From the IMG/VR virus record IMGVR_UViG_3300011126_000039, positions 1 to 41,269 of that record: DNA of 41,269 bases, one strand, 5' to 3'. The position numbers and the translations under genes were made by a program. This DNA comes from a virus. Positions 1,969 to 27,201 of the stretch are shown here, piece by piece (the first letter of the stretch is position 1; every line of letters begins with the position of its first letter). The notes under the pieces were generated by a model, which worked only from the letters and a program-made list of their open reading frames with translations, was not told where the DNA came from and ran no database searches.

Positions 1969-4008
1969 TTATGCTCCTATCTCTGTTAGTGTAATTGTTG
2001 CTATACTTTTTGCTTTCTGTCCAGCTGATGAGTCATTTATTTGACCAATTCCTGCTTCCACGTTACCATATAATTGATACGTATTAGCTCCATCAACAGG
2101 ATTCTTATCAGTAAATGTAAAACTAGTAGCATTATAGTCTGTACTGCTTGATGTCCTAACAGCAAATGTACACTCTCTATTCCCATTTCCAGTACCTATC
2201 GCACTTTCAAGTCTTACACCATTTCTATAGATACTAAAATATACACCATAGCTTGATGATGTATTTGTAACAGTACCTAGAGCAAAAACAATCTTAACTT
2301 TATTTGAAGCTCGTTTAGGCTTTATTGTTGCGACAATACCATTCAAGGGTGTATCAGTAGCACCCGTAAAATTTACCGAGTCAGGTTGTACAACTTGCAC
2401 CTCATTAACTGATGCACCTTTTGCTTGTAGACTATCAACTTGAATACAATCTTCAACAATACTTGGTGCATCATCTTCTAGTGTGATTGTACTTGGTACT
2501 CCACCACTTGCAGTTACTTTAACTAACTTACCATTTTCTGATAAGTATGTTTGTTGTGGGTTGTAAGCTACATCATCTTTGTCATACAATAACCCATCTA
2601 AATAATAATCAGCAGTAGGCTCTGACTTTGTATATATTTTACTTTCTGTTAATGTTGTTACTGAACTCCCAGCATAAGAAGTAAAAACATACTTTAGTCC
2701 TAAAATTGGTAACGTATTATTCATAATTGTATGCTCATATACTGTTAAGCTTGTAGTTACTTGGCTAAATGTACTATCTAAAACATAATCAATTCCATTT
2801 AATGTATAGTATATATCAAGTGTTTTTGTACCAGCATAGTACCAGCTAAGACTGATTTTCTCAACTTTTCTTAATTCAGTAAAGTCATACTTAATCCAGT
2901 CACCACTTGCATAGTTTGTAAGTTTTTGCCACTCTATACCAAGTAAATTATTATTATCAAAAGCTTTCCAAGATTGATGAGATGCTTCTTCTGAAATAGC
3001 ACTAACAGTTCCTGTAATAGATGTGTATGTAGTATGTATAGCATTTACATTAAATAAACCATCTACTATTCCCCAATTATCTATACTTACTTCTCCAAAC
3101 ACTGGTTTAACCAAAGTAGAAGTTACTGTGCCACTTGCACTAGTTTTTAAATAGTTATCTCCATCAGCATATCCATTTGTAGGAGTTATAATACCATCAG
3201 ATAAAGTAAATACTTCATTGTTACTACCAGTTGAGTTCATACCGTTACTGATACTACCAGCCACTCCTGATGCTACTAAGTCTGTACCTACTATTGAAAA
3301 TGAACCGTCTAGTATAGTAGACATATTTATACTTGCTTTCTTATTAGCTAAGGCTTCTATTGCATTAACATCTATACTACCAGCACTTATAGCTGCAGCA
3401 CTAGCACTAGCTGCTGCTGATGTTGCTGAACCACTAGCACTTATAACTGATAATGATGCTGATGTAGCATATCCACTAGCACTTGATGCTGAACCACTAG
3501 CACTTATACTGTATGATAAAGCATTAGTTTCAGATGTAGCTGCTGCTAAAGCACTAGCGGCAGCATTGGTTTCCGATGTAGCTGCTGCTAACACACTGTC
3601 TTCTGCTATACCAGCATTAGTACCAGCATCTAAAATAGATTGTTTCATAGGTTCTGTATTTATATCAACAACATCTTGTGCTATGAACGCAACATCTGCT
3701 ATATCTTGTGCGATACCAGCAAGAATAGCGACATCGCTTGGTGAGTCAATCAACTCATCAGGAGTATCAGCTACTCTAATTTCAATCTTTTCATATTGTG
3801 TTAATACTACGCTTGTTTTAACAACAGCTGAGTTATTAATAAGACTGAACTCACTTTGTTGAAGTTGTATCCATTGGTCAACTTCAGGTGTTATGCCATC
3901 ATCAAAAATCTTAACCCACACAGCCATATGGTCTTTAGCTGGTATTGGTTTGGTTGCCAAGTAAGTCCTAGAAGCACTTACTACATATTCATTACTTTGA
4001 ACTGCCAT
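1969..4008 (-). CDS. Tail fibre with T7-type N-terminus and discoidin-like domain
   Basis: This 679-residue receptor-binding protein starts with a T7 gp17-like attachment domain (residues 1 to about 125, with the typical VKIFDDGITP and KIEIRVADTPDELI stretches). An alanine/serine-rich repeat shaft follows at about 125-215 (for example AAATSETNA twice, SASGSA, TSASLS). Residues of about 335-430 (AFDNNNLLGIEWQ, DWIKYDF, KISLSWYYAGTKTLDIYYT) resemble an F5/8 type C, carbohydrate-binding discoidin fold. The C-terminus is probably a trimeric tip. The first domain would dock on the tail tubular proteins encoded just upstream. Fibre identity is secure; the discoidin call is by motif resemblance. Confidence 0.88.
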   Translation of the reverse strand: MAVQSNEYVVSASRTYLATKPIPAKDHMAVWVKIFDDGITPEVDQWIQLQQSEFSLINNSAVVKTSVVLTQYEKIEIRVADTPDELIDSPSDVAILAGIAQDIADVAFIAQDVVDINTEPMKQSILDAGTNAGIAEDSVLAAATSETNAAASALAAATSETNALSYSISASGSASSASGYATSASLSVISASGSATSAAASASAAAISAGSIDVNAIEALANKKASINMSTILDGSFSIVGTDLVASGVAGSISNGMNSTGSNNEVFTLSDGIITPTNGYADGDNYLKTSASGTVTSTLVKPVFGEVSIDNWGIVDGLFNVNAIHTTYTSITGTVSAISEEASHQSWKAFDNNNLLGIEWQKLTNYASGDWIKYDFTELRKVEKISLSWYYAGTKTLDIYYTLNGIDYVLDSTFSQVTTSLTVYEHTIMNNTLPILGLKYVFTSYAGSSVTTLTESKIYTKSEPTADYYLDGLLYDKDDVAYNPQQTYLSENGKLVKVTASGGVPSTITLEDDAPSIVEDCIQVDSLQAKGASVNEVQVVQPDSVNFTGATDTPLNGIVATIKPKRASNKVKIVFALGTVTNTSSSYGVYFSIYRNGVRLESAIGTGNGNRECTFAVRTSSSTDYNATSFTFTDKNPVDGANTYQLYGNVEAGIGQINDSSAGQKAKSIATITLTEIGA

Positions 4009-9627: not shown

Positions 9628-11151
9628 TTATTGAGCTTGTCCAGCAACAGCTTGACTTGCTACATTAGCCGCACCACTTGCAGCACCACTTGCAGCACCA
9701 TTAGCAACAGCATCTTGTTGTGCTTGTTGTCTTTGTTGTGCAGCTTCTTGTTCAACCTCATCAGGTGTCTTCATAAGGTTAACTGTATTAACACTTTCAA
9801 ATGAAGCGTATCTATTAAGAACTTCAGACTCTTTGAACCAATGTAGTTTCTCCATACTTGCGGCTCTTTGTAACAGACGGTCAAGCTTTTGAGCTTCTTG
9901 TGAACGACCAAGTGCATCTAACCCAGTTAAAATCTCAACTTCAATAGACTCAAACTTAATCTTAAGTTCTAACATAATCTGATTAACGTTCCATTTAGAC
10001 CATTGTAATGACAACTTAGAGTATATACCAGCTAGTGATGATGACTCTAACTCTTTAGCCATGAACATAATCTCTTCTGCTGTAACTCTTTCTGCGTCTC
10101 TTGTTACTGAGTCGTTCATTAAGAACGCTTGTGACAATGTCTTTTGTAGTTTAGCTTCTCTATCAGCTGCTACTTGGAAGTCAAAGTTTTTACCTAGTGT
10201 AAATGCAGTTACATCATCAGCCACACCATCTATAACATCACCGTTAACCGAGTCTGTTACATCATCCTTACGTGTTCTTCCACCACGCTCATTAACAAAA
10301 ATCAAAGACTTCGCTGCAATGATTGAACCATCTGTTAATAGTTGTGCTAACTTATCTAACTGCTCTAAGTCTTTATAATAGTCTTCTGTGTATGGTCTAT
10401 GGTACGCATCCCCAGTCATCCATGTCCAACCTAAATAGTTGTATGGCATATCCTGATAGTTTTTGTACGTAACTTCGTTACCTACCAACTCACCATCTAT
10501 CTCTTGTACTCTTACCCATACGTCAAGGTCAGTGTCTTTATAGACCATTGTATATAAATCATACTCATCCTTTTCCTCTTTAACTGTAACATCTTTTGGT
10601 AACTGTTTCAACTTCTCAACGAACACCATCTTTAATGGATAACCCTGAGAGTCTAAGTCAACAACGAACGTTTGAAGCTTGTGGAGTATCATACCTTTAC
10701 GACCAGTCTTTTTCTTCTCAACTATTACTGAACCTACAACAAGCAGTTCTGTAATAATATCGAATAATTGTGAACGTATCTGTTGTAGCTCAATCTCAGC
10801 ATTAACAACTGAGACGTTTGATGACAACACTTGGTACACCTTAGCAATGTTCTCAGGAGAGTCACCAGTAAGTGCAAGTAGTTCTTCAGGATTAGGTACA
10901 TACCTAAAACTAGATGTGCTTGGTGGCAATAGTGCCATACCCATCTTTGCTTTAAGTGTATTAATCAGCCTACCACCGAACGACTGGTTAGTCGAGTCAG
11001 TCATCTCAGTTGTACCTGAGTCTGAGTCTGACCTTATTACATATGGTAGAGTTAACTTTGCTATAAGCTTCGCTCTATCCTCATAGGGTTTACGGTCACT
11101 AAGCTTAAGTGAATAAAACTCACTAGGCAACTGTTCTACTGTTTCTGCCAT
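9628..11151 (-). CDS. Portal, head-to-tail connector (T7 gp8-like)
   Basis: This 507-residue protein matches the T7 gp8/head-to-tail connector family in length and pattern. Examples are LTLPYVIRSDSDSGTTEMTDSTNQSFGGR near the N-terminus, then LKAKMGMALLPPSTSSFRY, and ERVTAEEIMFMAKELESSSLAGIYSKLS in the stem/crown part. The C-terminus is a glutamine- and alanine-rich tail. It forms the dodecameric ring through which DNA is packaged and to which TTPA binds. AAGGA supports the start, which overlaps the upstream stop. Confidence 0.95.
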   Translation of the reverse strand: MAETVEQLPSEFYSLKLSDRKPYEDRAKLIAKLTLPYVIRSDSDSGTTEMTDSTNQSFGGRLINTLKAKMGMALLPPSTSSFRYVPNPEELLALTGDSPENIAKVYQVLSSNVSVVNAEIELQQIRSQLFDIITELLVVGSVIVEKKKTGRKGMILHKLQTFVVDLDSQGYPLKMVFVEKLKQLPKDVTVKEEKDEYDLYTMVYKDTDLDVWVRVQEIDGELVGNEVTYKNYQDMPYNYLGWTWMTGDAYHRPYTEDYYKDLEQLDKLAQLLTDGSIIAAKSLIFVNERGGRTRKDDVTDSVNGDVIDGVADDVTAFTLGKNFDFQVAADREAKLQKTLSQAFLMNDSVTRDAERVTAEEIMFMAKELESSSLAGIYSKLSLQWSKWNVNQIMLELKIKFESIEVEILTGLDALGRSQEAQKLDRLLQRAASMEKLHWFKESEVLNRYASFESVNTVNLMKTPDEVEQEAAQQRQQAQQDAVANGAASGAASGAANVASQAVAGQAQ

Positions 11152-11653: not shown

Positions 11654-11995
11654 TTACAGTCCTTTATAAAAACATTTGTTCTTTTCGTCATATTTTCCAA
11701 ATCGTGCAATCGCACTATCCTTCATTATTGAACTTAGAACAACCTTATCGTTAGACAAAGCTGCTTTAAGGATTACTCTACGCATACCAACAGTAAAAGG
11801 TTGATTTTTAACTGTACCCGAGTTTATCATTAAAACATCATTGTCATCATATCCCATGGAAATTATACCATAAACCTCACCGTCCTTATGATATACCTCA
11901 TGTTTCCAATTTGGCATATTAAGTGCAGCTACCCAGTCGTCTGAAATACCATCGGGAAATAAAATTTCTTCTTCATGTTTAGTTAATTTTTCCAT
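11654..11995 (-). CDS. Hypothetical protein at the head of the late cluster, possibly acetyltransferase-like
   Basis: This 113-residue protein is the first gene of the minus-strand late cluster. The pattern VYGIISMGYDDNDVLMINSGTV followed by GMRRVILKAALSNDK and a C-terminal FGKYDEKNKCFYKGL loosely recalls the small GNAT-like fold of T7 gp13-type virion proteins. The acetyl-CoA motif is not clear. No Shine-Dalgarno lies before the ATG, and a TGATACAAT -10 ends ten bases upstream, so the message probably has a very short leader. Confidence 0.55.
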   Translation of the reverse strand: MEKLTKHEEEILFPDGISDDWVAALNMPNWKHEVYHKDGEVYGIISMGYDDNDVLMINSGTVKNQPFTVGMRRVILKAALSNDKVVLSSIMKDSAIARFGKYDEKNKCFYKGL

Positions 11996-12004
11996 AATGT
12001 GCCA

Positions 12005-12013
12005 ATTGTATCA
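12005..12013 (-). promoter_or_regulatory. Extended -10 promoter for the late cluster
   Basis: On the minus strand the bases read TGATACAAT, ten bases before the ATG at 11995. No -35 hexamer lies 17 bases upstream. Initiation six to seven bases after the -10 would leave a leader of only three or four bases. Confidence 0.5.
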
Positions 12014-12028
12014 TAAATTTTGAAAATA

Positions 12029-12037
12029 TGCTATACT
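12029..12037 (+). promoter_or_regulatory. Extended -10 promoter for the 12043 gene
   Basis: TGCTATACT is an extended -10 placed five bases before the ATG at 12043. No ribosome binding site is present, so a leaderless mRNA is the simplest reading. It is back to back with the minus-strand -10 at 12005. Confidence 0.45.
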
Positions 12038-12042
12038 AACTT

Positions 12043-12603
12043 ATGAAAAAATTAAATAATTACTTCGATTACAACGTACCATACACTTCTCAGTTGAGGC
12101 AGATGTACATTACGCCATACCGTTTCTCTCAGGAGTTGAGAGACTACACCTACTATATGTTCACACACCCAGTACACAATAAGAAATACTGCAAAATCTT
12201 TGAAAAACATTGTCGTCCTTGGGATACTAACGATATGTTGAAGCGTGTTTACCTTATAATAAGATACTATCAGGACTATCCACAGCAGTTCGGACACTCA
12301 ATGGATAATGTAGTTCCGCATATGATAGTAGCAATGTGGAAAACGTTTATCGGTATCAACAAAAAGTTTAGGGGTGCAGAGTTTAAGAAATACTATCCAG
12401 CTGATATGCACTTACTAATGCTTGGTAAGAATAAGTTTTTAGACATCTTCCTTTCGGACATTGAAACAATGAACATTATAATGCACTCTGATGATATGAT
12501 TAAAGACAGAGGTGATGATGTGCCGCTCAAAGGTCGAAGAACGACTGGGTTATCAATGCAAGAAGGTGGTAAAATGTTTGAATGGTTATGCACTTTAGAT
12601 TAG
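12043..12603 (+). CDS. Unknown 186-residue protein, first plus-strand gene
   Basis: I do not recognise this protein. It is rich in aromatic residues (many Tyr, Phe and Trp, for example YYMFTHPVHNKKYCKIF and HMIVAMWKTFIG), basic, and has no signal peptide or clear membrane segment. It stands alone: 47 bases from the divergent late gene on one side and about 1 kb of non-coding DNA on the other. There is no Shine-Dalgarno before the first ATG; starting at the Met of MYITPYRF would lose about 20 residues. Its own promoter and position suggest early or regulatory expression. Confidence 0.65.
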   Translation: MKKLNNYFDYNVPYTSQLRQMYITPYRFSQELRDYTYYMFTHPVHNKKYCKIFEKHCRPWDTNDMLKRVYLIIRYYQDYPQQFGHSMDNVVPHMIVAMWKTFIGINKKFRGAEFKKYYPADMHLLMLGKNKFLDIFLSDIETMNIIMHSDDMIKDRGDDVPLKGRRTTGLSMQEGGKMFEWLCTLD

Positions 12604-12942
12604 AGTGTACCTATGAGCGTAGGAGTACCGCCCATAGGATGAACACACAAGTCCCGTTTCGCTTACGGGCAGAACACTATATCCAATGCAACATTAATCA
12701 AAGCTTTCATACTCACCTACTGTTACCTTAAGGTTGATATTTTGCATGGCGATTACGAATATGGGGTTCCCCGCACGAACAGCTTTTCAATTTCCCCCAT
12801 AGCTCTGTATATTCCAGCCCAAAAAGATTAATTTTTAGGACTGTTGAAGGCAAATGTAACCACACTCAACACATCAAAGCCCACAAAACTAAGCCTAAAA
12901 TGTTAATAGATAATAACTTTTAGCGTTATTTAGTAGTATAGT
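12604..12942. other. Foldable, relatively GC-rich non-coding island
   Basis: No convincing ORF. The first 230 bases are clearly less AT-rich than the genome around them. Pairings seen include GTGT (12605) with ACAC (12643) enclosing CCTATG (12610) with CATAGG (12633), a hairpin CCCGT/ACGGG (12653-12669), ACCTTAAGGT near 12725, and GGG-GTTC-CCC near 12764. Further on, TTTTAGG near 12834 can pair with CCTAAAA near 12894, enclosing TGTTGA/TCAACA. It may be a structured RNA or part of the phage's physical end. No tRNA fold was found. Confidence 0.4.
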
Positions 12943-13014
12943 TTGAGGCGTTGAGGCGTTGAGCCTTTGAGGTGTTGAGCCTTTGAGCCTTCCAGCCTTC
13001 CAGCCTTCCAGCCT
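12943..13014. repeat. 8-bp tandem array 1, nine units
   Basis: Nine consecutive 8-bp units without a phase break. They read TTGAGGCG twice, then TTGAGCCT, TTGAGGTG, TTGAGCCT twice and TCCAGCCT three times. The 8 bp on either side do not fit the unit. This is the first of three such arrays in 336 bp. Confidence 0.85.
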
Positions 13015-13081
13015 TTATAATGCACTTATCACCGCTTTAAACGTGCACACGATATTAACTAATAAAGATAAAATAATCCTT

Positions 13082-13153
13082 TTAAGCCTTGAAGGCGTTC
13101 AAGCGTTCAAATCTTTAAGCGTTCAAATCTTTAAGCGTTGAGGCGTTGAAACG
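13082..13153. repeat. 8-bp tandem array 2, nine units
   Basis: Nine consecutive 8-bp units: TTAAGCCT, TGAAGGCG, TTCAAGCG, then TTCAAATC and TTTAAGCG alternating twice, TTGAGGCG and TTGAAACG. The consensus is near TTNAAGCG. A 53-bp stretch made almost only of A and T follows. Confidence 0.85.
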
Positions 13154-13206
13154 ATATAAAATAAAATATATAAAATAAAATATATTAAAGCAAAACTTTT
13201 TTATTC

Positions 13207-13278
13207 TTGAAACGTTTAAGCCTCCAAGTGTTGAAACATTAAAGCGTTCAAGTGTTGAGTCGTTTCAAGGTTGAAACT
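13207..13278. repeat. 8-bp tandem array 3, nine units
   Basis: Nine consecutive 8-bp units: TTGAAACG, TTTAAGCC, TCCAAGTG, TTGAAACA, TTAAAGCG, TTCAAGTG, TTGAGTCG, TTTCAAGG, TTGAAACT. These are the most diverged of the three arrays, but period and unit number are the same. The array is separated from array 2 by AT-rich DNA. Confidence 0.8.
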
Positions 13279-13314
13279 AATATATTAATATAAAAGCAAG
13301 TTTCACCACTGAAA

Positions 13315-13362
13315 AACATTAAATAAAAACATTAAATAAAAACACTAAAAACATTAAATAAA
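13315..13362. repeat. AT-rich 13-mer repeats
   Basis: The unit AACATTAAATAAA occurs at 13315, 13328 and 13350, with a 9-base shortened unit AACACTAAA at 13341. Tandem AT-rich 13-mers resemble the DNA-unwinding element of bacterial origins. From 13363 to the promoter at 13561 the DNA is AT-rich and I see no gene or further repeat. Confidence 0.75.
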
Positions 13363-13560
13363 AAGTATTAATTGCGATTATATAAATAACTTTTATCATT
13401 ATTAATACCTAAAAACGCTTATTTTTTAATGATTTGTTCCAAAAAAGTTTAATAAAAAATACCAAATTTTAACAAATTTTGAAATTTAGCGTACGCCCGA
13501 TATTGTCGAACGTGTAGAGTTTTATTTTATTAAATTTTATGCAATAATTCCAAAAGTACC

Positions 13561-13589
13561 TTGACAAATAATCCGAAAAAGAATAAAGT
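13561..13589 (+). promoter_or_regulatory. Strong sigma70-type early promoter
   Basis: A perfect TTGACA -35 is followed after exactly 17 bases by TAAAGT, about 30 bases before the ATG at 13620. It has the best -35 in the window and should be read directly by host RNA polymerase on infection, opening the plus-strand early arm. Confidence 0.8.
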
Positions 13590-13619
13590 TTCACTACAAA
13601 TTAACACAAGGAAAACAAA

Positions 13620-14066
13620 ATGAAAAATATCCAAGAAACAAACGGGACACTAGTTAAAATGAGTGCTAATATTAAATTAGCTAAAGAAGTAAGAAATGCA
13701 AGTGTGAAAAGTGCAATTGATTTAACGATTGAATTTAGTCAAGAAAATAAAGAAGTATTCTCAACTAAGAAAAACGCTATATCTACATTTATTAAAAGCA
13801 TGTTAGGTGATGCAACGGTTGACGCTTATACAAAAAGAGCGGTTAAAGTTGCGAAAACTATTTTAGTGGACGGTTACAAAATGAAAAAAGAATTATTAAC
13901 TATTTCACAAATGGAACAATTAGCAAAATTCAAAAAAGAGACAGTTAATGAATTGATGGACTTAGAAGAAGAGTTTTATATTGATGCGGTTAAAGAGCTT
14001 ATAAATAGTGCAAAAGTTATTAAAAATACAAAAGTTTTCAATGGGACAAAAGCGTCTAAAATCTAA
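13620..14066 (+). CDS. Early hypothetical protein, 148 residues
   Basis: This lysine-rich, largely helical soluble protein is not recognised. It starts MKNIQETNGTLVKMSANIKL, has an AAGGAAAAC ribosome binding site and follows the strong 13561 promoter. It is likely among the first and most abundant phage products. A hairpin overlaps its stop codon, so it may be a separate transcription unit. Such positions often hold host-takeover proteins, but no domain supports a specific role. Confidence 0.75.
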   Translation: MKNIQETNGTLVKMSANIKLAKEVRNASVKSAIDLTIEFSQENKEVFSTKKNAISTFIKSMLGDATVDAYTKRAVKVAKTILVDGYKMKKELLTISQMEQLAKFKKETVNELMDLEEEFYIDAVKELINSAKVIKNTKVFNGTKASKI

Positions 14067-14084
14067 GGGTTACGCCCTTAGATT
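14060..14084 (+). terminator. Hairpin overlapping the stop of the first early gene
   Basis: AATCTAAGGG pairs perfectly with CCCTTAGATT around a TTACG loop. The stop codon TAA lies in the left arm. The following bases (AAATATTTG) are AT-rich but not a clean T-run, so termination may be partial. Confidence 0.6.
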
Positions 14085-14100
14085 AAATATTTGATTAAGT

Positions 14101-14195
14101 CTTATTTTGTTGCTTTCAGTGGACGGCATAAAAGCAAAATAAGATTTAACAAAATATTTACTTGCCTTCAGTGGACGGCATAAAAGCAAATATTT
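14101..14195 (+). ncRNA. Tandem hairpins with identical loops, candidate structured RNA
   Basis: An exact 24-base repeat at 14115-14138 and 14167-14190 contains CAGTGGACGGCATA. In copy 1 it is enclosed by a perfect stem, CTTATTTTG (14101-14109) with CAAAATAAG (14135-14143). In copy 2 it is enclosed by AAATATTT (14152-14159) with AAATATTT (14188-14195). The outer stem sequences differ yet both pair, while the loops are identical. That is the pattern expected of a conserved RNA fold. No ORF covers it. The motif is not one I can name. Confidence 0.6.
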
Positions 14196-14432
14196 GAAAA
14201 TCATAATAATGTTACGTGTAAAAGTCACGTTAAAAATAGGTTTGATTACTTTAACCGTAATAAGGTAGCAACGTTCGCAAGATTAAGGGCGGTAAAACAT
14301 TAAATAAAATAAAAATTTTCATAGCATAACTTTTAAAACGTGAAATTTAAAAGTTACTTGAAAAATTTTTATTTAATTGTATAAGCATAAATTTTATTTT
14401 ATGTTTACTAAATTAAATAAAAAGGATAAAAA
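14196..14432 (+). repeat. Non-coding stretch with nested inverted repeat
   Basis: No gene. ACGTG/CACGT form a small hairpin near 14214-14230, and ACCG (14254) can pair with CGGT (14290). An inner inverted repeat, TAACTTTTAAA (14327-14337) with TTTAAAAGTTA (14346-14356), lies inside an outer AT-rich pairing of about 14307-14321 with 14358-14373. It could be a transcript leader, an attenuator or a cruciform site. The region ends at the AAAAGGATAAAAA ribosome binding site of the next gene. Confidence 0.5.
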
Positions 14433-14585
14433 ATGGTAATAGCAATAATTACAAATTTAAAGACGAGATTGTTCAAAGTGGTGGATTGTTCATGGTACGA
14501 TATGGGACAATTTAACAAATTATTAAAAGCATATGGTGAAAATATGGATTATGAAATAAAAATAACTAGAAGAAGGGAATGTTAA
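14433..14585 (+). CDS. Small hypothetical protein, 50 residues
   Basis: The frame reads MVIAIITNLKTRLFKVVDCS and ends EIKITRRREC. AAAAGGATAAAAA precedes the ATG, and the stop TAA overlaps the next ATG. It is basic with a short hydrophobic start. This is the first gene of a tightly packed early operon running to about 19135. No family is recognised. Confidence 0.6.
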   Translation: MVIAIITNLKTRLFKVVDCSWYDMGQFNKLLKAYGENMDYEIKITRRREC

Positions 14586-14710
14586 TGGACTTAATAATCA
14601 ATTTAATAATGGGTGAAAAATATATCTCTTCAGAAATGGGACTTGGATTAAATCTTGTAAGTTTAATTACTGGGATTTTAATATTAATAATAGTGAAAAA
14701 AGGATTATAA
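14585..14710 (+). CDS. Small membrane protein, 41 residues
   Basis: The frame begins MDLIINLIMGEKYISSEMGL and carries one C-terminal transmembrane helix (LNLVSLITGILILIIV) followed by KKGL. Start and stop are coupled to the neighbours. Short single-span proteins in early phage operons often act on the host envelope or exclude other phages, but that is only a possibility here. Confidence 0.6.
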   Translation: MDLIINLIMGEKYISSEMGLGLNLVSLITGILILIIVKKGL

Positions 14711-14711
14711 A

Positions 14712-15788
14712 ATGGAAAATGATTTACTAGGAAAAGCATTATTACCTATAATTAGTGGGGCAGTTACGGACGAAATGAAAAAGTTAGATATTGAAGGGCA
14801 AATTAAAACCCTTTTAAATGAGGTGGCGGAAAATGCTGAAAAGGTTATTACCGTAAAATTAGAAGGTGCGGAACGTAGGGAAAAATTACCATTAGTACAT
14901 AAGCAATTTGAAGATTTGCTACAAATTACACAAATTAAAGGTTTAAATGTACTTTTAACTGGTGGTGCGGGATTAAGCAAATCTACTGCGGTGGAACAAT
15001 GTGCAAAAGCGTTTCAACTAGAAATGGGTAGCATATCTTTTAGTAACCAAACAACAAAAACGGACTTATTAGGTTTTGTGGATGCAAACGGTATCTATAG
15101 AAAATCTAGTTTTGTGGACGCTTTTCAAACTGGAAAAGTATTTTTAGCGGATGAAATGGATGCGTGTTCGGCAAATGTACTGGTGCTTTTAAATAGTGCA
15201 ATATCAAATGGTTTTATTGAAACGCCTGACAATAAAGTTATACACGCTCATGATAACTTTAGATTTATTGGGACGGCGAACACAAACTTAAGGGGTGCTA
15301 AAAATGGATTTAGTGCTAGAAATAAATTAGACAGTGCAACTATAGATAGATTTTGTGTTATTGAGTGGGAACTTGATGAAGACTTAGAAGAAAAGTTGAC
15401 AAATAACAAAGGATGGTTAACGCTAGTTAGAAAATGTCGTGAGGTAGCAAATAAACAATTGGAAGGTGTGACAATTACTCCAAGAAGCAGTTATGATGGT
15501 GCAAAATTGTTACGTGCGGGTATCGGTATTGATAAAGTTATTCAAATGACTATCATTAAAGCTATGGGCGAAGATGAAAAAGATGTTTTACTAAAAGCAG
15601 TGACTGAAAATATGAAAATCCAAGCAGTTAAAGGTGCTGGACAAGAAAAACCAAAACCAAAAGTTGAGGCTGAAAAGGTTGAAGAGGTTGAGCTAGATGA
15701 AATGGCTATGGATGACGTGCAAACGTTCGAACAAGCAAAAGAAGATGACTCACGCGGTGAAGCTGGTGATGATGATTTTGAGTGGTAA
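14712..15788 (+). CDS. MoxR/CobS-type AAA+ ATPase
   Basis: This 358-residue protein has an AAA_5-type ATPase core. Walker A is GGAGLSKST (84-92), Walker B VFLADE (143-148), and the sensor-1 region FIGTANTN (185-192) is followed by SATIDRFCVIEW with a likely arginine finger. The N-terminal helices and the acidic C-terminal tail (EEVELDEMAMDDVQTFEQ) lie outside the core. MoxR-family ATPases remodel partner proteins and usually pair with VWA-domain proteins. The next gene, 10 bases downstream, may be such a partner. Cobalamin synthesis is unlikely in this setting. Confidence 0.88.
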   Translation: MENDLLGKALLPIISGAVTDEMKKLDIEGQIKTLLNEVAENAEKVITVKLEGAERREKLPLVHKQFEDLLQITQIKGLNVLLTGGAGLSKSTAVEQCAKAFQLEMGSISFSNQTTKTDLLGFVDANGIYRKSSFVDAFQTGKVFLADEMDACSANVLVLLNSAISNGFIETPDNKVIHAHDNFRFIGTANTNLRGAKNGFSARNKLDSATIDRFCVIEWELDEDLEEKLTNNKGWLTLVRKCREVANKQLEGVTITPRSSYDGAKLLRAGIGIDKVIQMTIIKAMGEDEKDVLLKAVTENMKIQAVKGAGQEKPKPKVEAEKVEEVELDEMAMDDVQTFEQAKEDDSRGEAGDDDFEW

Positions 15789-15798
15789 GGGGTAAATA

Positions 15799-16602
15799 AT
15801 GGAATTAAAATATGTACCAAAAGCGTTGGAAAATGACGCAACTAAAAAAGATTTGATATACGATTTTGGAACGTTGAATACTTATAAAAAGTTCATGGTT
15901 GAAAATAAGGACTTTAAAGGACGATATAACCATTCAATGTCAACTGGTGATTGGAGTGGTGTAAAAACCTATGACAAATATTTAGAGTTACTTGAAAATG
16001 GTGATGAAGCGGTTATGAAAAAAATCAAACTTGAAACTACAAAGCAAATCGCTGAGTTGGGTAAAAAGTATGTCGAAGTTATTGACAATTATAAGTTTGA
16101 TGTGACGGGACAATTTTTCGATGTCGGTTTGGTTATGACGGGTGTACCTGAAACGTGGTTAGAACCTGAAATAAAAGAAGAGGAACAAGTGCAAGTAGAA
16201 ATAGTTGTAAATGGTTCATTCCCTGACGGAAGCGATTTAGATATTGTGGTTGAAAATGCTGGACGTGTTTTAGCAATGGTTAAAATACTTGAAGACCATG
16301 GGGTTGAAGTTAAAATAATACAAGTAGCAACGGCTAAAAACTTTAGAAAAACTGGTGAGACTTTATTTGCAATGGTTAACATTAAAGATTATGACGAACC
16401 TATAAATTATAAAAAATGTAGTGCTTTAATGTCTCCTACGTACTTAAGAAGGGGATGTATGAAAATGATGGAAGTATTTGGCGGAAATACTTTAAGCAGT
16501 GGTTATGGAAAAAGTTTAAATATGGAAGGTGCGGTTAGATTGTTAGATACTAAACAAGTTGATGCATTAGAAAGAAAACTATTTAAAGGGGGTAAAAAGT
16601 AA
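15799..16602 (+). CDS. Putative MoxR partner, VWA-like (DUF7192-like) protein
   Basis: This 267-residue protein follows the AAA+ gene. Its N-terminal half contains STGDWSGVKTYDKYLELLENG, a pattern I associate with phage DUF7192 proteins. The C-terminal half (VEIVVNGSFPDGSDLDIVVENAGRVLAMVKILEDHGVEVKIIQV, then YLRRGCMKMMEVFGG) has the strand-helix-strand rhythm of a Rossmann or VWA fold. A classical MIDAS DxSxS is missing. Taken with the adjacent ATPase it may be the substrate-binding half of a MoxR-VWA chaperone pair. Pairing is from context. Confidence 0.6.
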   Translation: MELKYVPKALENDATKKDLIYDFGTLNTYKKFMVENKDFKGRYNHSMSTGDWSGVKTYDKYLELLENGDEAVMKKIKLETTKQIAELGKKYVEVIDNYKFDVTGQFFDVGLVMTGVPETWLEPEIKEEEQVQVEIVVNGSFPDGSDLDIVVENAGRVLAMVKILEDHGVEVKIIQVATAKNFRKTGETLFAMVNIKDYDEPINYKKCSALMSPTYLRRGCMKMMEVFGGNTLSSGYGKSLNMEGAVRLLDTKQVDALERKLFKGGKK

Positions 16603-16883
16603 TGGTTAAATTAAGAAGCGGTGCTACGTACCTTATAAAAGTACGTGATGCTTGGTATATCGTGCGACAAAGTGGGATGAAGAGTTGGGAAGCTATGATA
16701 TTTTCTCACTGTATACCTACATATCCAAATAAAGCCTACTTACACGGTAACGCTATAGGATTATTAGAAGAGTTTAAAAAACTCAATGGTGACAAGGCTT
16801 GTGATTTTGTGATTTGTACGGACAATGTGCAATTAAGAAGGGCTATGTTTGAAATTTTAAAAACTGGAACATTCAATGGATAG
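16602..16883 (+). CDS. Hypothetical protein, 93 residues
   Basis: The start overlaps the previous stop (TAATG). The protein begins MVKLRSGATYLIKVRDAWYI and is a small alpha/beta protein with two cysteines near the C-terminus (KACDFVICTDN). There is no membrane segment or known motif. It is part of the early operon; function unknown. Confidence 0.7.
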   Translation: MVKLRSGATYLIKVRDAWYIVRQSGMKSWEAMIFSHCIPTYPNKAYLHGNAIGLLEEFKKLNGDKACDFVICTDNVQLRRAMFEILKTGTFNG

Positions 16884-17112
16884 ACCACTAATGACTTTAC
16901 ACGCAAAGGAACGTTTGCTGGAACGATGTATGGGGATGGAAGCCCCGTACTCACAAGAGATGTTAGATAGGGCTGAAGAGTATTTCTTTTATGCTGTTAA
17001 AATATGTACATTTACAAAGAGATATTTTTTAGATGATTTTGACGCTGAGGCTGTGGTAGTAAATAACCACGTATTGACAATAAAAATAAATGAGGTAAAA
17101 GAAAATGATTAG
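16876..17112 (+). CDS. Small protein with DUF4258-like N-terminus
   Basis: This 78-residue protein overlaps the previous gene by 8 bases. The start MTLHAKERLLERC (an alternative Met at residue 6) followed by a beta-rich C-terminus (EAVVVNNHVLTIKINEV) resembles the HA-x-E-R-x-x-E-R pattern of DUF4258/RelE-like small proteins. It could equally be an unrelated phage fold. No antitoxin-like partner is obvious next to it. Confidence 0.55.
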   Translation: MDRPLMTLHAKERLLERCMGMEAPYSQEMLDRAEEYFFYAVKICTFTKRYFLDDFDAEAVVVNNHVLTIKINEVKEND

Positions 17113-17452
17113 AGCGGTTGTAAATAAGGTTTATCCTACGTGTGGACAAAGTTATAGTCTTGTTGAGATTGAGAATTATAAAGACTATTATGAGCATTTA
17201 GAGGCTAGTTTATTTGATGTTATTTACGTAACATATAAGGGACATAGACTTAGTGTTTTTGTTGATGATGAAGGTATGTTGAAAAGTGGTAATTATGGTA
17301 GACTTATTGCAGATTATCCAAATCCTATTTTTGGCAATGTGGTAATTGTTGGTGATGTAGATGAAGAAGGCGAAACGTTAGGGTTACCTGATGATTTAAA
17401 TTTGACAGATATGTTTGATTTTTCGGGAGATATACAATGGAGAACAAAATGA
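17105..17452 (+). CDS. DUF3846-like protein
   Basis: This 115-residue acidic protein overlaps its neighbours at both ends. Its C-terminal pattern, a short beta-strand segment VFVDDEGMLKSGNYGRLI followed by FGNVVIVGDVDEEGETLGL, matches the layout of DUF3846 (residue-number strand, N/L-x-R segment, then G-x-VVIVG-x-x-D-E-G-E). DUF3846 proteins are common on phages and plasmids, with no firmly known function. Confidence 0.6.
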   Translation: MIRAVVNKVYPTCGQSYSLVEIENYKDYYEHLEASLFDVIYVTYKGHRLSVFVDDEGMLKSGNYGRLIADYPNPIFGNVVIVGDVDEEGETLGLPDDLNLTDMFDFSGDIQWRTK

Positions 17453-17670
17453 TTAAAAAAATTGATGGTAGGTTAGAAGGACATTATAATACAAAGCAGT
17501 TGTTGAAACTTTTAAATAAAAGGTACGGTTTAAATCAGTTAGGTATTAAAAAGCTTTTAGAGATTAATACTACTAGGTTTAGAAAGATTAGTAGTGGACA
17601 AGACGAGTTTAATAGTGTTGAACGTGAGATAATATGTATGGCGTTTCAAGAATTAGAAGGGAGATATTGA
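17449..17670 (+). CDS. Small HTH-like hypothetical protein
   Basis: About 73 residues from MIKKIDGRLEGHYNTKQLLK. I chose this ATG because it overlaps the upstream TGA (ATGA) and has GGAG five to six bases before it. An in-frame ATG four codons upstream also has a GGGAG site, so the start is not settled. The segment LLKLLNKRYGLNQLGIKKLLEINTTRFRKI looks like a helix-turn-helix, suggesting DNA binding, possibly early regulation. Confidence 0.6.
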   Translation: MIKKIDGRLEGHYNTKQLLKLLNKRYGLNQLGIKKLLEINTTRFRKISSGQDEFNSVEREIICMAFQELEGRY

Positions 17671-17671
17671 T

Positions 17672-17893
17672 ATGACAACTAGAAAACTTAGAGAACTAGA
17701 ATTAGAAGCTAAACATATGCAGAGAATGGTAGCTTCATTTGGAGATAATTGTACAAAAGCTATAAATGAAAGAGATAATTTAATAGCTGAATTAATAGCT
17801 AGAAACAAGAGGTTAGAGAGTGATAATATGATGTTAGCAGATAAGATAATTAGACTTAAAAGAGAGTCTAATAAATTAGAAATAAGGGTATAA
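17672..17893 (+). CDS. Small coiled-coil protein, 73 residues
   Basis: Almost the whole protein is a heptad-rich helix (MTTRKLRELELEAKHMQRMV to LADKIIRLKRESNKLEIRV). It follows the HTH-like gene by one base and precedes a small membrane protein. It probably oligomerises; function unknown. Confidence 0.65.
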   Translation: MTTRKLRELELEAKHMQRMVASFGDNCTKAINERDNLIAELIARNKRLESDNMMLADKIIRLKRESNKLEIRV

Positions 17894-17894
17894 A

Positions 17895-18005
17895 ATGACT
17901 AAAGTGCAAGAACTATTAATAGCAATAGGAGTAGGTGTAAGTTTATTTACACTATGTATGGGTAGCATAGTTATTTATGCTTATAGTATTATAGGAGATT
18001 TATAA
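17895..18005 (+). CDS. Small membrane protein, 36 residues
   Basis: The frame reads MTKVQELLIAIGVGVSLFTL then CMGSIVIYAYSIIGDL. One transmembrane helix covers most of it. It is one base from the previous stop, and its own stop overlaps the next ATG. It is a second small early membrane protein besides the one at 14585; role unknown. Confidence 0.55.
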   Translation: MTKVQELLIAIGVGVSLFTLCMGSIVIYAYSIIGDL

Positions 18006-18049
18006 TGAGATTACAAACGTATGAAGAATTTAGCCTAAATAGGTTATAA
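18005..18049 (+). pseudogene. Ghost 5' end of the 18676 gene, left of an HNH gene
   Basis: A 14-codon frame, MRLQTYEEFSLNRL, resembles the start of the 18676 gene (MKLMTQSEWYNEI). Both share M-K/R-L-x-T-x-x-E-F/W, and both DNA copies end in AAATAGGTTAT (18037-18047 and 18710-18720). The upstream copy is two bases shorter over this stretch, which brings a stop codon into frame. I read it as the remnant of the gene start that the HNH gene displaced. Confidence 0.5.
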
Positions 18050-18078
18050 TTAAGATAGCTAAAACAAAGGAAAATAAA

Positions 18079-18675
18079 GTGAAAATATTAAAAGACTTAG
18101 GCATGATGATTACCGAAAATGGGAGCAAGAGAAGATTCTATATTATGGAATGCGAAACTTGCAAGAGTGAATATACAGTTAGGTCTGACTTTAAAAAAAG
18201 CAATTGCAATAAATGCTCATGGAAAGAAAGAGGATTAAAATCTAGGAAGTGGAAAACAAAAGAGGATAGAGCTTTAAAACAGACATGGAGGAATATGATT
18301 GACAGATGCTATCTTGAAACAGATAAAAGATACAGATTATATGGTGCAAAGGGGGTGACTGTCTGCAAAGAATGGAAGGAAGACATTTATTCTTTCATAT
18401 CTTGGGCAAAAGACAATGGGTACGAAAAAGGACTACATCTAGATAAAGACATATTATCAGACGGATTAAAGATATATAGTCCAGAAACTTGCAAATGGGT
18501 GACTCATAAGGAGAATACTAATTGCACATCTAGAAGTAAATATATAACTCATAACGGGAAGACTCAAACTTTAGCAGATTGGGCAAGAGAGCTTAAGTTT
18601 AATTATTCAAGAGTAAACACAAGGCTTCATCTGGGTTGGAGTTTTGAAAAAGCAACAAAAGAAAAGGGGAGTTAA
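18079..18675 (+). CDS. HNH-type homing endonuclease with zinc finger
   Basis: This 198-residue protein uses a GTG start with AAAGGAAAATAAA upstream. Cys25, Cys28, Cys43 and Cys46 form an N-terminal zinc ribbon. The centre, TWRNMIDRCYLETDKRYRLYG then VTVCKEWKEDIYSFISWAKDNG and SPETCKWVTHKENTNC, is the pattern of free-standing phage HNH homing nucleases and parallels the 25241 gene. The C-terminus (GKTQTLADWARELKFNYSRVNTRL) is an HTH-like DNA-binding tail. It is inserted just before the 18676 gene, with a degenerate copy of that gene's start on its left side. Confidence 0.8.
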   Translation: MKILKDLGMMITENGSKRRFYIMECETCKSEYTVRSDFKKSNCNKCSWKERGLKSRKWKTKEDRALKQTWRNMIDRCYLETDKRYRLYGAKGVTVCKEWKEDIYSFISWAKDNGYEKGLHLDKDILSDGLKIYSPETCKWVTHKENTNCTSRSKYITHNGKTQTLADWARELKFNYSRVNTRLHLGWSFEKATKEKGS

Positions 18676-18888
18676 ATGAAATTAATGACACAATCAGAAT
18701 GGTATAACGAAATAGGTTATGCAATAGAAGAGGCATATACAGAATGGCTAGATAGTTGTCCTGATGTTTCGTTGGTGGATATGTTACCTTCAGTGCAAGA
18801 ATATTTAGAAGAGGAATACGAAGCGTTGAGAGGTTTATATGAAGACATTACTTACGAAACTTACAGAGATGAACAAAGGGAGAAGTAA
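18676..18888 (+). CDS. Acidic hypothetical protein, 70 residues
   Basis: It begins MKLMTQSEWYNEIGYAIEEA after a GGGGAG ribosome binding site that lies at the very end of the HNH gene. It is strongly acidic and helical, rich in Glu and Tyr. A partial copy of its 5' end survives upstream of the HNH gene, so its ribosome binding site is now supplied by the insertion. Acidic small phage proteins can mimic DNA, but nothing here proves that. Confidence 0.65.
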   Translation: MKLMTQSEWYNEIGYAIEEAYTEWLDSCPDVSLVDMLPSVQEYLEEEYEALRGLYEDITYETYRDEQREK

Positions 18889-18889
18889 A

Positions 18890-19135
18890 ATGATAAGTGA
18901 ATATTTAGGAGCAGAGGTTTATAAAATAACCTTGACAAGTGGTAAAGAATTAGAATTGGATGTGAGAGAATTAGCTGAATTATCTTCAGCTAATGATGCA
19001 GAATATGAAGAAAAGATTTCAGACCTCGAAAAAGAAAATCTTTTTTTAGATGAAAAAAATGGAGAATTAGAGGAAAAAATATTAAAAATAAAAGTTTTAT
19101 TATCAGAATTAACACTGATAATGGACGAAATATAG
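18890..19135 (+). CDS. Coiled-coil hypothetical protein, 81 residues
   Basis: The start MISEYLGAEVYKITLTSGKE is chosen because GGAG lies seven bases upstream and one base follows the previous stop; a longer frame would overlap the preceding gene by 50 bases. A small beta-like N-terminus precedes an acidic coiled coil (residues of about 40-75). It is the last gene of the early operon before the origin-like region. Confidence 0.65.
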   Translation: MISEYLGAEVYKITLTSGKELELDVRELAELSSANDAEYEEKISDLEKENLFLDEKNGELEEKILKIKVLLSELTLIMDEI

Positions 19136-19149
19136 CCCAAAAAGGGCTT
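19133..19149 (+). terminator. Short hairpin ending the early operon
   Basis: AGCCC pairs with GGGCT around AAAAA, overlapping the stop of the 18890 gene, and is followed by TATTTG. The stem is short and the T-run weak, so it is a possible terminator only. Confidence 0.4.
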
Positions 19150-19150
19150 A

Positions 19151-19425
19151 TTTGATACCGTTTGATACCGCTTTGATACCGCCCTTTGAACCGCTTCAAA
19201 GCACCATAAAATGGTACAAAATCCCTATATTTATATATACGGTTCAAAGGTTCAGAGGGTATAGCCTATATACAAATTTTTATTTTTTTAATTAAAATAA
19301 ATTAATATAAATAAAAAAATAATATATTATAAAGGTGGGTGAGTGGGTGAACCTTTGAACCTTTTTCAAGAAACACGTTAACCGTGGTAGCTAGAGGCGG
19401 TTCAGAGGCGGTTCATTTGCGGTTC
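19151..19425. repeat. Inverted iteron arrays around an AT-rich core, candidate origin
   Basis: On the left TTTGATACCG occurs at 19151, 19161 and 19172, then TTTGAACCGC at 19185. On the right the same word in reverse orientation, GCGGTTC, ends 11-bp units at 19393, 19404 and 19415. Between them lie CGGTTCAAAGG (19241-19251), TGAACCTTTGAACC (near 19348) and a nearly pure A/T stretch of about 19270-19332. Iterons flanking an AT-rich core next to a primase-helicase gene are typical of phage and plasmid origins. Whether it works as one is inference. Confidence 0.6.
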
Positions 19426-19456
19426 AAGGCGATTTGCTTTATTTAAAGGGTAAATC

Positions 19457-19465
19457 TGATACAAT
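19457..19465 (+). promoter_or_regulatory. Extended -10 promoter for the replication operon
   Basis: TGATACAAT lies 29 bases before the primase-helicase ATG, followed by a proper leader and AAGGAG. It is identical to the -10 motifs at 7961 and 12005 on the other strand. Confidence 0.55.
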
Positions 19466-19494
19466 TACTGAAGTTTAATTAAGGAGTAACATGA

Positions 19495-21849
19495 ATGTCG
19501 AATGATATTTTAAAAGATGCCTATAACAAATATAGACAATTGGGTTTTGTATTGCACAAGTCAGCTAAACATAAAAAACACGCTTACAGAGAAGGTGCAT
19601 ATATAGAACGTGAAAATGAGGAGTGGGAAGATAGTGCCACTGGTTATGTTGGTATTATTCCACCTAACTTAATCATCGTTGATAATGACGCATACAATGA
19701 TGAAGGTAAGTCTTTCAAAAAATTACTTAAAGATTTAGATTTAGATTATATTCCTGAGCCGTTTGCAATAACACCAAGCGGTGGAGAGCATTACGCTTTT
19801 AACAATCCAAATGAAGATATGGTTATTGGGAACGTATCTAAAATTTATGAGAGTTTAGATATTTATGCTGGTTATCAATCTGTTTTACCTATCGTTGGTA
19901 CTACTGTTTATAATAAGCAAAACGAATTAGCAAGTTACACATGGGGAACGTTTGACGATGAATTTATAGTTAATGAATACACACCTAAAATGGCTGAGGT
20001 ATTTAAAATGAGAGTTCGTGCAGAAGGTTCTAATACTGAGTACGAAGATGATATGGGTTTGAGTGTTGCGGTTAAAGCTGGTGAAATGTCGGACGAAGAG
20101 GTTGTCGCTCTGTTGGAAAATGTACCACCTGATGTTGACTATGATACATGGTTGGCAATTGGTATGTGTTTATACGACAGATATGAGGGTGGTGATGATG
20201 GGCTAAAACTATTTTTAGATTTCAGTGCTAAGTCTCTTGAAAAAGATGACCCTTCATTCACTGAAAAGAAATGGCGTAACGGAAACTTTAAACCTACCTC
20301 AACAACTTACACAAGACTGCGTTCAATATCACATGAGTTTGAGTTGAATAACTTTGAGCATGAGATTAAGACTGCTGATGTTAAGAAAATTAAAAAGATA
20401 ATTAAAAAGATTTCGGACACTCCGCACTTGAACACAAGGGGTAAACTTGACCAAGATGTACGGGAAGATTTATCTCACAAATTAAATGAGCGTTTTAAAG
20501 AACTTAAAAAAGAAGACCCTACTGTGAAAGTTTTACAAGCTAGAACATTAATCAAGGACATTCAACACGTACCTACTGTTGAGCAACTTGAAGAAAAGGG
20601 TGGTGGTGCTAACATGGAAGTTTTCCTTGATGGTAAATCTTTTGTGCTTAGAGTTGGTAAAAAGGTTAGTGTCAATTTAGCTGAGTCTTCAATTATAAGA
20701 CACTGTTCGGCTTCAGAAATACCACCACAAGTAGCAACTGCATATATAAACAAAGCGTCACCTATCAGTGGTGTTAAAGTTGAGTCAGATTATTTAATTG
20801 AAAGTGACATAAGTTTTGAAACCTTAGACTCAGGTATGGAGCATGAGTATCCATTTTTACATATCAAAAGTAACCCTACGGTTAAAATGAAAATCACTCA
20901 CGAATATGATGAAGAGATTATAAACGATTTCTTTAATAACATTTGGCAAGGTACGTTTGAAGATATTATTAAACTTGTTGCACTTACAATTAGATTTAAA
21001 GAGGGTAAGAAAAACCAACTAATGTTAGTTACTCCTACAAGTTTTGGTAAGACACAAGCTATGAAGCACATGGGCTTTAATGAAATAGGTATGTCACTAC
21101 TTCTTGGTGCAATGCAAAATGATGGTATCGGTGGTGAGGTTTTAAACCCTATCAAAGAGACGGGACTAATGCTAATCAATGAAGTTGATACAGCTATTCC
21201 AAAAGCACTAAAAGAATTAGAAAATAGGATACAAGTTAAAGAGTTTGGTATGGGTGGTGGTACACGTTCAATACCTTTACATTTTTTGATTATGACTTCA
21301 ACACATAGGACTGCTATTTTAAAAGCAAGTGATGAAGTTGCTGAAAGAACAATGTTTATGGAACTCAAAGAGTTTGAGTCTAAATATAGACTTACGAAAA
21401 GTCCAATATTTAAACGTGACAAAGAGTATTATTCAAACGTACTTAAATCACATACGGTTAGACAGTTTAAACATTATCTTTACGATGGTGAGTTTACGGC
21501 TAACGACCTTTACGAGTTGCAAGAAAAATATAACCTGGAAACTTCTGAAGACTTAGACGGGATAATCGAAGACGTTTTCTATACTACACGTGAGGCAATA
21601 CGAAGTGGACTTGGTGTAGAAAAAGATGGTAACTGGTACGTTAAACGTAAAACAGATGTTAGAGATTTAATCAACTCTTTGCTACAAGACTACTCAGGTG
21701 TAGATACTGGTAAATATGTTGAGTTAATCGCTGATAGATTAATTGAAGACAAACGGGTAAAAGTTAAAGGTGAGTTGCTTTATAGAGTCAATGAAAAAGT
21801 TAATAGTGTCATTGATGAATTTGATGATTTAGATATTGACGACCTTTAG
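19495..21849 (+). CDS. PrimPol-helicase replication protein
   Basis: This 784-residue replication initiator/primase-helicase has three parts. The N-terminus holds a bifunctional primase-polymerase domain with acidic motif LIIVDND (59-65) and TPSGGEHYAF (about 93-102). A PriCT_2 domain follows at about 195-265 (VPPDVDYDTWLAIGMCLYDR). The C-terminal SF3/D5-like ATPase has a variant Walker A, TPTSFGKTQ (about 513), Walker B LMLINEVD and sensor FLIMTSTHRT. It should prime and unwind DNA at the adjacent iteron region. The start is fixed by AAGGAG eight bases upstream. The first-position Walker A glycine is not conserved. Confidence 0.88.
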   Translation: MSNDILKDAYNKYRQLGFVLHKSAKHKKHAYREGAYIERENEEWEDSATGYVGIIPPNLIIVDNDAYNDEGKSFKKLLKDLDLDYIPEPFAITPSGGEHYAFNNPNEDMVIGNVSKIYESLDIYAGYQSVLPIVGTTVYNKQNELASYTWGTFDDEFIVNEYTPKMAEVFKMRVRAEGSNTEYEDDMGLSVAVKAGEMSDEEVVALLENVPPDVDYDTWLAIGMCLYDRYEGGDDGLKLFLDFSAKSLEKDDPSFTEKKWRNGNFKPTSTTYTRLRSISHEFELNNFEHEIKTADVKKIKKIIKKISDTPHLNTRGKLDQDVREDLSHKLNERFKELKKEDPTVKVLQARTLIKDIQHVPTVEQLEEKGGGANMEVFLDGKSFVLRVGKKVSVNLAESSIIRHCSASEIPPQVATAYINKASPISGVKVESDYLIESDISFETLDSGMEHEYPFLHIKSNPTVKMKITHEYDEEIINDFFNNIWQGTFEDIIKLVALTIRFKEGKKNQLMLVTPTSFGKTQAMKHMGFNEIGMSLLLGAMQNDGIGGEVLNPIKETGLMLINEVDTAIPKALKELENRIQVKEFGMGGGTRSIPLHFLIMTSTHRTAILKASDEVAERTMFMELKEFESKYRLTKSPIFKRDKEYYSNVLKSHTVRQFKHYLYDGEFTANDLYELQEKYNLETSEDLDGIIEDVFYTTREAIRSGLGVEKDGNWYVKRKTDVRDLINSLLQDYSGVDTGKYVELIADRLIEDKRVKVKGELLYRVNEKVNSVIDEFDDLDIDDL

Positions 21850-25222: not shown

Positions 25223-25240
25223 TTGGTAAAAGGATATATC

Positions 25241-25876
25241 ATGAAAAACAAACGCGAACATTATTTGTATAGTACATGGGCTGGGATTAAGGATAGATGC
25301 TTAAACCCTAAATCTTACGCCTACGCCAATTACGGTGGTAGAGGTGTCACAATGTGTAAACGATGGCGAAATTCTTTCACATTGTTTATTGAGGACATGG
25401 GAGATAGACCCGACGGGACTAGTATAGATAGGATAGATAATCAGGGTAATTATGAACCTTCAAATTGTCGATGGGCTACAAGAGAGGAGCAATCTAGGAA
25501 TAGAAGGGTTTATAAAACTTCTAAGACTGGTTATAGCGGTATTAGAAAGACAACCTCAGGAACGTATCAAGTTAGAACACGTAATGATAGGCTTATATTG
25601 GGGTGTTTTGAAACCTTAGAAGACGCCTATGAGGCTCAACAAAAAGGTGAAAAACAAACTAAACCTAGAATTAACAACACAACTGGTCACAAAGGCATAA
25701 TAATACAAGGGGGTAAATACCTTGTTAGAAAAACAGTTGACGGTAAACGTATTTATTTGGGTAATACAAAAACCTTGAAAGAAGCTATTGCTTTATATGA
25801 AAGTGGTATTAAAAAGAAAAAGGATATGAACAATGAAAGAGATGAGTTCGGAAGATATAAAGCTAAGAATAACTGA
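25241..25876 (+). CDS. HNH homing endonuclease with two AP2-like domains
   Basis: About 211 residues from MKNKREHYLYSTWAG, chosen because AAAGGA lies six bases upstream; a longer TTG-start frame is less likely. The HNH core is typical of phage homing nucleases: YGGRGVTMCKRWRNSFTLFI, then DMGDRPDGTSIDRIDNQGNY and EPSNCRWATREEQSRNRR. Two AP2-like DNA-binding modules follow (TGYSGIRKTTSGTYQVRTR and TGHKGIIIQGGKYLVRKTV). The gene separates the two halves of the DNA polymerase and overlaps the start of the second half by 44 bases. Confidence 0.9.
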   Translation: MKNKREHYLYSTWAGIKDRCLNPKSYAYANYGGRGVTMCKRWRNSFTLFIEDMGDRPDGTSIDRIDNQGNYEPSNCRWATREEQSRNRRVYKTSKTGYSGIRKTTSGTYQVRTRNDRLILGCFETLEDAYEAQQKGEKQTKPRINNTTGHKGIIIQGGKYLVRKTVDGKRIYLGNTKTLKEAIALYESGIKKKKDMNNERDEFGRYKAKNN

Positions 25877-26645: not shown

Positions 26646-26721
26646 TTTACATGGTTATCAGTTCTTGACAAATAGAAATGGATACAGTACAATATTAGAA
26701 AAGGATATTGTATGGATGTAG
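26632..26721 (+). pseudogene. Ghost 5' end of the SNF2 helicase gene
   Basis: The 29-codon frame begins MNKNNLHGYQFLT; the intact helicase has MLHGYQLKAV at the same relative place. The DNA word TTACATGGTTATCA is identical at 26647-26660 and 27253-27266, flanking the HNH gene. After this word the upstream copy diverges completely. It is best read as the original helicase start, cut off by the insertion. Confidence 0.55.
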
Positions 26722-27200: not shown

Positions 27201-27201
27201 T

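Follow-up and report, generated by a model that had tools for sequence, protein, structure and literature searches.

The window analysed here is an entire IMG/VR viral contig of 41,269 bp, a near-complete podophage genome, with three tandem arrays of 8-bp units in the non-coding region between its early and late genes. The locus raises the question of whether such arrays mark the physical ends of the genome, bind a replication initiator, control early transcription, or are products of replication slippage. The structural and packaging genes of the window, as identified by PHROG and Pfam matches, are of the T7 type, and a large internal virion protein (phrog_342) is also encoded. The replication genes are not of the T7 type, and comprise a PriCT-2 primase/helicase, a DNA helicase, an AAA ATPase, and a phage-type family-B DNA polymerase, which is in two parts. 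At 24113-26645 and 26712-28576, the polymerase is split by a 217-residue open reading frame that resembles a homing endonuclease; the frame of the helicase, apparently without a start, lies after another homing-endonuclease-like frame. Both interruptions are possible mobile intron or endonuclease insertions. The early genes are oriented rightward, from 13.6 to 31.5 kb. The late genes start at 12.0 kb, are read leftward and, in a closed genome, would continue as far as 31.5 kb; the terminase genes come last in this unit (31494-33487). Neither an end overlap nor an end repeat is present in the contig; end overlaps are present in most full-length relatives checked. The genes and the region that frame the locus are:

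9628-11151: portal protein (phrog_449)
12043-12603, plus strand: gene of a 186-residue protein, left border of region A, at a position conserved in alignments of 10 relatives
12604-13619, no strand: region A, non-coding, candidate replication origin, 1,016 bp between the early and late transcription units
13620-14066, plus strand: first early gene, encoding a 148-residue protein of a conserved family with an all-helical model; right border of region A
31494-33251: large terminase subunit TerL, T7-type (phrog_38, PF22530)
33248-33487: small terminase subunit TerS, T7-type (phrog_891, PF11123)

Neither border protein has a PHROG or Pfam match. The predicted model of the 186-residue protein (pLDDT 75) and that of the 148-residue protein do not match known folds, so that the comparison of folds pointed to neither as an initiator. 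Searches with the single sequences of the two proteins found no relative; alignments were needed.

The repeats of region A form three arrays on the plus strand:

12943-13014, plus strand: array 1, nine 8-bp units that change from TTGAGGCG to TTGAGCCT to TCCAGCCT
13082-13153, plus strand: array 2, nine 8-bp units of the TTNAAGCG / GTTCAA type
13207-13278, plus strand: array 3, nine 8-bp units of the TTNAAGCG type

Array 1 is composed of two TTGAGGCG units, TTGAGCCT, TTGAGGTG, two TTGAGCCT units, and three TCCAGCCT units. The units of array 2 are, in order, TTAAGCCT, TGAAGGCG, TTCAAGCG, TTCAAATC, TTTAAGCG, TTCAAATC, TTTAAGCG, TTGAGGCG, and TTGAAACG, and those of array 3 are TTGAAACG, TTTAAGCC, TCCAAGTG, TTGAAACA, TTAAAGCG, TTCAAGTG, TTGAGTCG, TTTCAAGG, and TTGAAACT. 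The first-pass annotation had described three arrays of exactly nine units of one type, separated by 67 and 53 bp. On direct reading, the spacers and the unbroken 8-bp phase are correct, and the coordinates and the in-phase units hold for all three arrays; array 1, however, is not of the TTNAAGCG type. When nine units were scored in phase against TTNAAGCG (maximum 63), array 2 reached 50, array 3 49, and array 1 39, compared with 31 for the next best position on the same strand, 36 for the best on the other strand, and 34 for the best of 60 dinucleotide-shuffled genomes. Arrays 2 and 3 match TTNAAGCG far above chance, and array 1 is built on another 8-mer that is homogeneous within the array; its adjacent units are alike, and its last three match TTNAAGCG at three of the seven informative positions. 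The lag-8 self-identities of the arrays are 0.84, 0.61, and 0.53, and the best of 60 shuffles reached 0.61; array 3 exceeds chance by its consensus and not by its self-periodicity. Since array 1 is not of the TTNAAGCG type, its count of nine rests on tracking its internal repeat. Together with the one poor unit of array 3 (TTTCAAGG, 4/7), this makes the equal copy number partly dependent on where the array ends are drawn. A search for related arrays with positions 12600-14100 gave no DNA match among sequenced phages.

The equal copy number had been taken to suggest selection on the exact number of units, which the relatives do not support. L184 and L185, from two metagenomes, are almost one and the same phage: their alignment outside the array, about 12.8 kb, differs in 4 columns. 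Their homologous octamer arrays are 167 and 117 bp long (50 bp apart), with 11 and 10 ATGTTCAA units and 3 and 1 spacers, a difference to be read with the caveat of short-read assembly of repeats. Unit number thus varies between close relatives, one of three outcomes that the first-pass annotation had named in advance as refuting its interpretation. Three arrays of nine occur in no other relative read, and the relatives found include none as close to the window, for which its own three arrays could be compared in the same way. Nine is probably not a meaningful number, which corrects the idea that the equality of the counts has a meaning.

Tandem repeats cover 26% of region A and 0.9% of the rest of the genome. 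Besides the arrays, region A contains the following elements:

12740-12807, plus strand: conserved element at the head of the region, aligned in 12 relatives, with the consensus TTTTGCTNGGGAAAT..GGGGTATCCACCCC..GATTT..ATTTNCCCCCATAGCCC
12865-12879, minus strand: octamer-like sequence CTCAACACATCAAAG, complementary to part of array 1 and resembling CTCAACACGTGAACAG of relative L223
13154-13202, plus strand: AT-rich block abutting array 2, with 2.6 copies of the 14-mer ATATAAAATAAAAT followed by ATATATTAAAGCAAAACTTTTTT
13312-13398, plus strand: AT-rich block after array 3, with 4.4 copies of the 13-mer AAAAACATTAAAT followed by GTATTAATTGCGATTATATAAATAACTTTTATC
13561-13589, plus strand: sigma-70-type promoter-like site of the early operon, TTGACA-17-TAAAGT, with about 30 bp between it and the first early gene

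The conserved element, which can also be written GGGGTATCCACCCC..TTTCCCCCATAGCCC, ends in TTNCCCCCATAGCCC across relatives. It was rejected as a structured RNA since it has no consensus pairs and no covarying structure; a Rfam scan of positions 11950-19600 gave no match. The ATATAAAATAAAAT/ATATATTAAAGCAAAACTTTTTT block is related to the ATATTAAAGCAAAACTTTT / ATAATGCAACTCTTTTTT blocks of relatives and is the second least stable 60-bp stretch in the genome. Two of the four least stable stretches are located at the AT-rich blocks of arrays 2 and 3; AT-rich stretches are found elsewhere in the genome too. Promoter-like sites, read by eye, are similar at the same place in relatives.

The comparison of the region covered 16 of the relatives located via TerL, the AAA ATPase, and the 186- and 148-residue proteins. 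The order of elements is constant in most: the 186-residue protein gene, the conserved element, repeats, AT-rich blocks that end in ATTAAAGCAAAACTTTTTT or ATAATGCAACTCTTTTTT (often two), the early promoter, and the 148-residue protein gene. Pooled over 13 genomes, tandem repeats cover 13.9% of the region and 1.3% of the sequence elsewhere. The sequence of the repeats at the homologous place differs among the phages. Four genomes with well diverged proteins have octamers with a GTTSAR core at an 8-bp pitch, on either strand: the window and L184 (ATGTTCAA), and G012 and L179, in which they are on the bottom strand (GTTCAGCTGTTGAG). G015 has other 8-mers (GGCGTGTA, GGTGACGC), and in G028 a 22-bp direct repeat in 8.3 copies takes this position. 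Among 17 phages, the regions contain 17 GTTSAR pairs spaced by exactly 8 bp (shuffle mean 0.04), seven of which lie within the homogeneous L184 array and are not independent, and the motif was picked after the sequences had been seen. There are no pairs at 6, 7, 9, 10, 11, or 12 bp, and five pairs outside the regions. Few or no tandem repeats were found in region A of G013, L232, L222, and G033/G037, and the arrays are therefore not essential in these phages. The 8-bp periodicity is strong in about half of the first set of relatives (mean z 3.3 without the window), and weak in four relatives added later (mean z 1.7, second to lag 10). Lags 11 and 22 occur just as widely as lag 8, and the idea of a universal 8-bp periodicity of the family was dropped. 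A stretch of L179 directly after the 186-residue protein gene (3705-3930, minus strand) resembles, when read by eye, several tRNA genes.

The regions of four relatives contain 22 DnaA boxes of the sequence TTATTCACA, with about 0.13 expected: six of the seven in the genome of G012, all four of G011, four in L179, and eight in L223. This sequence agrees with the consensus DnaA box of Arcobacter, Sulfurimonas, and Wolinella (PMC5043019), which belong to the Campylobacterota. The four regions resemble the DnaA-box clusters of Campylobacterota oriC in this respect, unlike the window, which has no DnaA box even when one mismatch is allowed.

Origins of iteron plasmids and of phage lambda combine direct repeats with an AT-rich opening element and often DnaA boxes (PMC10797057, PMC7466680). 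Region A has tandem direct repeats confined to three arrays, and AT-rich elements next to them, as the 14-mers abut array 2 and the 13-mers follow array 3. DnaA boxes, a feature of iteron plasmids and not of lambda, are found in the four relatives. The likeness to lambda and to the plasmids RK2, F, and P1 thus lies in the pairing of direct repeats with an AT-rich opening element and, in some relatives, in DnaA boxes; the AT-rich 13-mers have a counterpart in RK2 (PMC10797057, PMC7466680). In contrast, the 8-bp units of the window are arranged in tandem without spacers and are shorter than usual iterons, and the unit sequence and even the type of repeat vary between relatives. The first-pass annotation had offered an origin with protein-binding iterons as the alternative to genome ends. 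This proposal is now the better supported of the two, on the strength of what relatives have at this position, namely DnaA boxes, 22-bp iterons, the octamer core, and AT-rich repeats; the window itself lacks the boxes. We see nearly an even chance that region A acts as a control region of the replication module at which DNA is bound and opened, most likely as all or part of an origin. The locus as a whole is a rapidly changing repeat array inside a conserved control region, for which an initiator-binding origin region is, at those odds, the best reading.

We hypothesize that an initiator, which may be a phage protein or, where relatives carry boxes, the host DnaA, covers the arrays by cooperative binding, wraps the DNA, and opens the neighboring AT-rich 13-14-mers, at which the phage helicase/primase and the family-B polymerase would start. 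Arrays 2 and 3, each with an AT-rich block after it, could constitute two such modules. The number of arrays would not be critical and could change by slippage and recombination. The GC skew turns at region A. However, the 186-residue protein gene, which lies to the left of region A and points to it, has a mostly positive coding-strand skew (pooled 0.14). The skew therefore seems to track gene direction and was dropped as evidence for an origin.

A candidate for a rival origin lies about 6 kb from region A:

19136-19494, no strand: region B, with TTTGATACCG, GGTTCA, and AGAGGCGGTTC repeats flanking an AT-rich core; the primase/helicase gene follows immediately

Of all 60-bp stretches in the genome, the least stable lies in region B. 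Repeats flank an AT-rich core also in region B of G006, G012, G015, and G031, and those of relatives read GGTAGTAA or GTGGTCAAA. Judged from sequence, region B is at least as origin-like as region A and equally plausible as the origin; the phage may have two.

If replication starts from region B, the arrays of region A may instead control the early operon or titrate a host protein as decoys (DnaA, where relatives have boxes), and so act on transcription or host takeover. The promoter-like site at the end of region A, just before the first early gene, and the repeats flanking an AT-rich core beside the primase gene in several relatives are consistent with such a role. The promoter-like site, however, lies about 410 bp downstream of the end of array 2 and about 280 bp downstream of that of array 3, the combination of AT-rich 13-14-mers and iterons beside DnaA boxes is more typical of origins, and G028 has its 22-bp iterons without an exact DnaA box. 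We regard this role as unlikely, though it deserves to be weighed. Somewhat less likely still are minisatellites, slippage products of little or no function that are tolerated in a non-coding region. The length difference between the L184 and L185 arrays, the variation of repeat type among relatives and the absence of arrays from some, and the similarity of neighboring units in array 1 point in this direction, and (TTNAAGCG)n runs are present in many unrelated bacterial genomes among the matches listed. These bacterial minisatellites share with the phage arrays the unit consensus, the drift between neighboring units, and the length change between close relatives. Here, in contrast, a single phage locus recurs in diverged phages with a shared GTTSAR core and the same 8-bp pitch on either strand, and the arrays adjoin AT-rich repeats. 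Moreover, the other long non-coding stretch of the window (14067-14711) has no lag-8 signal (z 0.2). The (TTNAAGCG)3 matches in bacterial genomes were not used to name a host, as they comprise listed matches only and no other octamer was compared.

Phage T7 has arrays of short 7-bp repeats, SRL and SRR, beside its terminal repeats, and its left end is ordered as repeats, early promoter, and first early gene. The arrays had been proposed as possible marks of the physical genome ends; in this reading, they would act in concatemer processing. The window phage has large and small terminase subunits of the T7 type, its short tandem repeats precede an early promoter and the first early gene in an order like that of the T7 left end, and the early and late units diverge here. 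Nevertheless, the units differ from those of T7 in length and sequence, no terminal repeat was located, and the terminase genes are distant from the locus. Three relatives (G031, G033, and G037, with loci L186, L188, and L194) are siphophages with a tape-measure protein, a phrog_145 portal, and TerL of phrog_10250/979 in those tested. All three keep the 148-residue protein and MoxR-like AAA-ATPase genes behind a non-coding region, which in G033 and G037 is short and without arrays and has a sequence like the conserved element (CCATAGGGGTATACCACCC in G037). The locus, retained in siphophages whose TerL and portal belong to other families, thus tracks the early and replication genes and not those of packaging. 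This weakens the reading as T7-like ends. Break points of contigs are uninformative on the ends, as the majority of the full-length relatives checked are circular with differing break points and the ends of incomplete contigs scatter. The proposal of T7-like ends is not supported and is partly contradicted, and we consider it improbable for the window phage. The siphophages share early genes with the podophages (G031 also the primase), and their head, tail, and packaging genes are unrelated; by sequence, this is an exchange of modules between the two morphotypes.

If region A is an origin, as we prefer to read it, one locus would switch between boxes for a host initiator, long iterons, and 8-bp iterons, and the related phages would lend themselves to a study of how an origin comes to use a different initiator. 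We speculate, with considerable doubt, that it represents an origin class of uncultured podo- and siphophages, in which a putative initiator binds spacerless 8-bp GTTSAR iterons head to tail and the array has been swapped in evolution for DnaA boxes or 22-bp iterons while the flanking genes were kept. Beyond the right border of region A, two copies of TTCAGTGGACGGCATAAAAGCAAA are located after the 148-residue protein gene (14116-14190). Each copy is flanked by mutually complementary stretches, CTTATTTTGTTGC / GCAAAATAAG and AAATATTTACTTGC / GCAAATATTT, and similar paired stretches are present 3' of the same gene in relatives.
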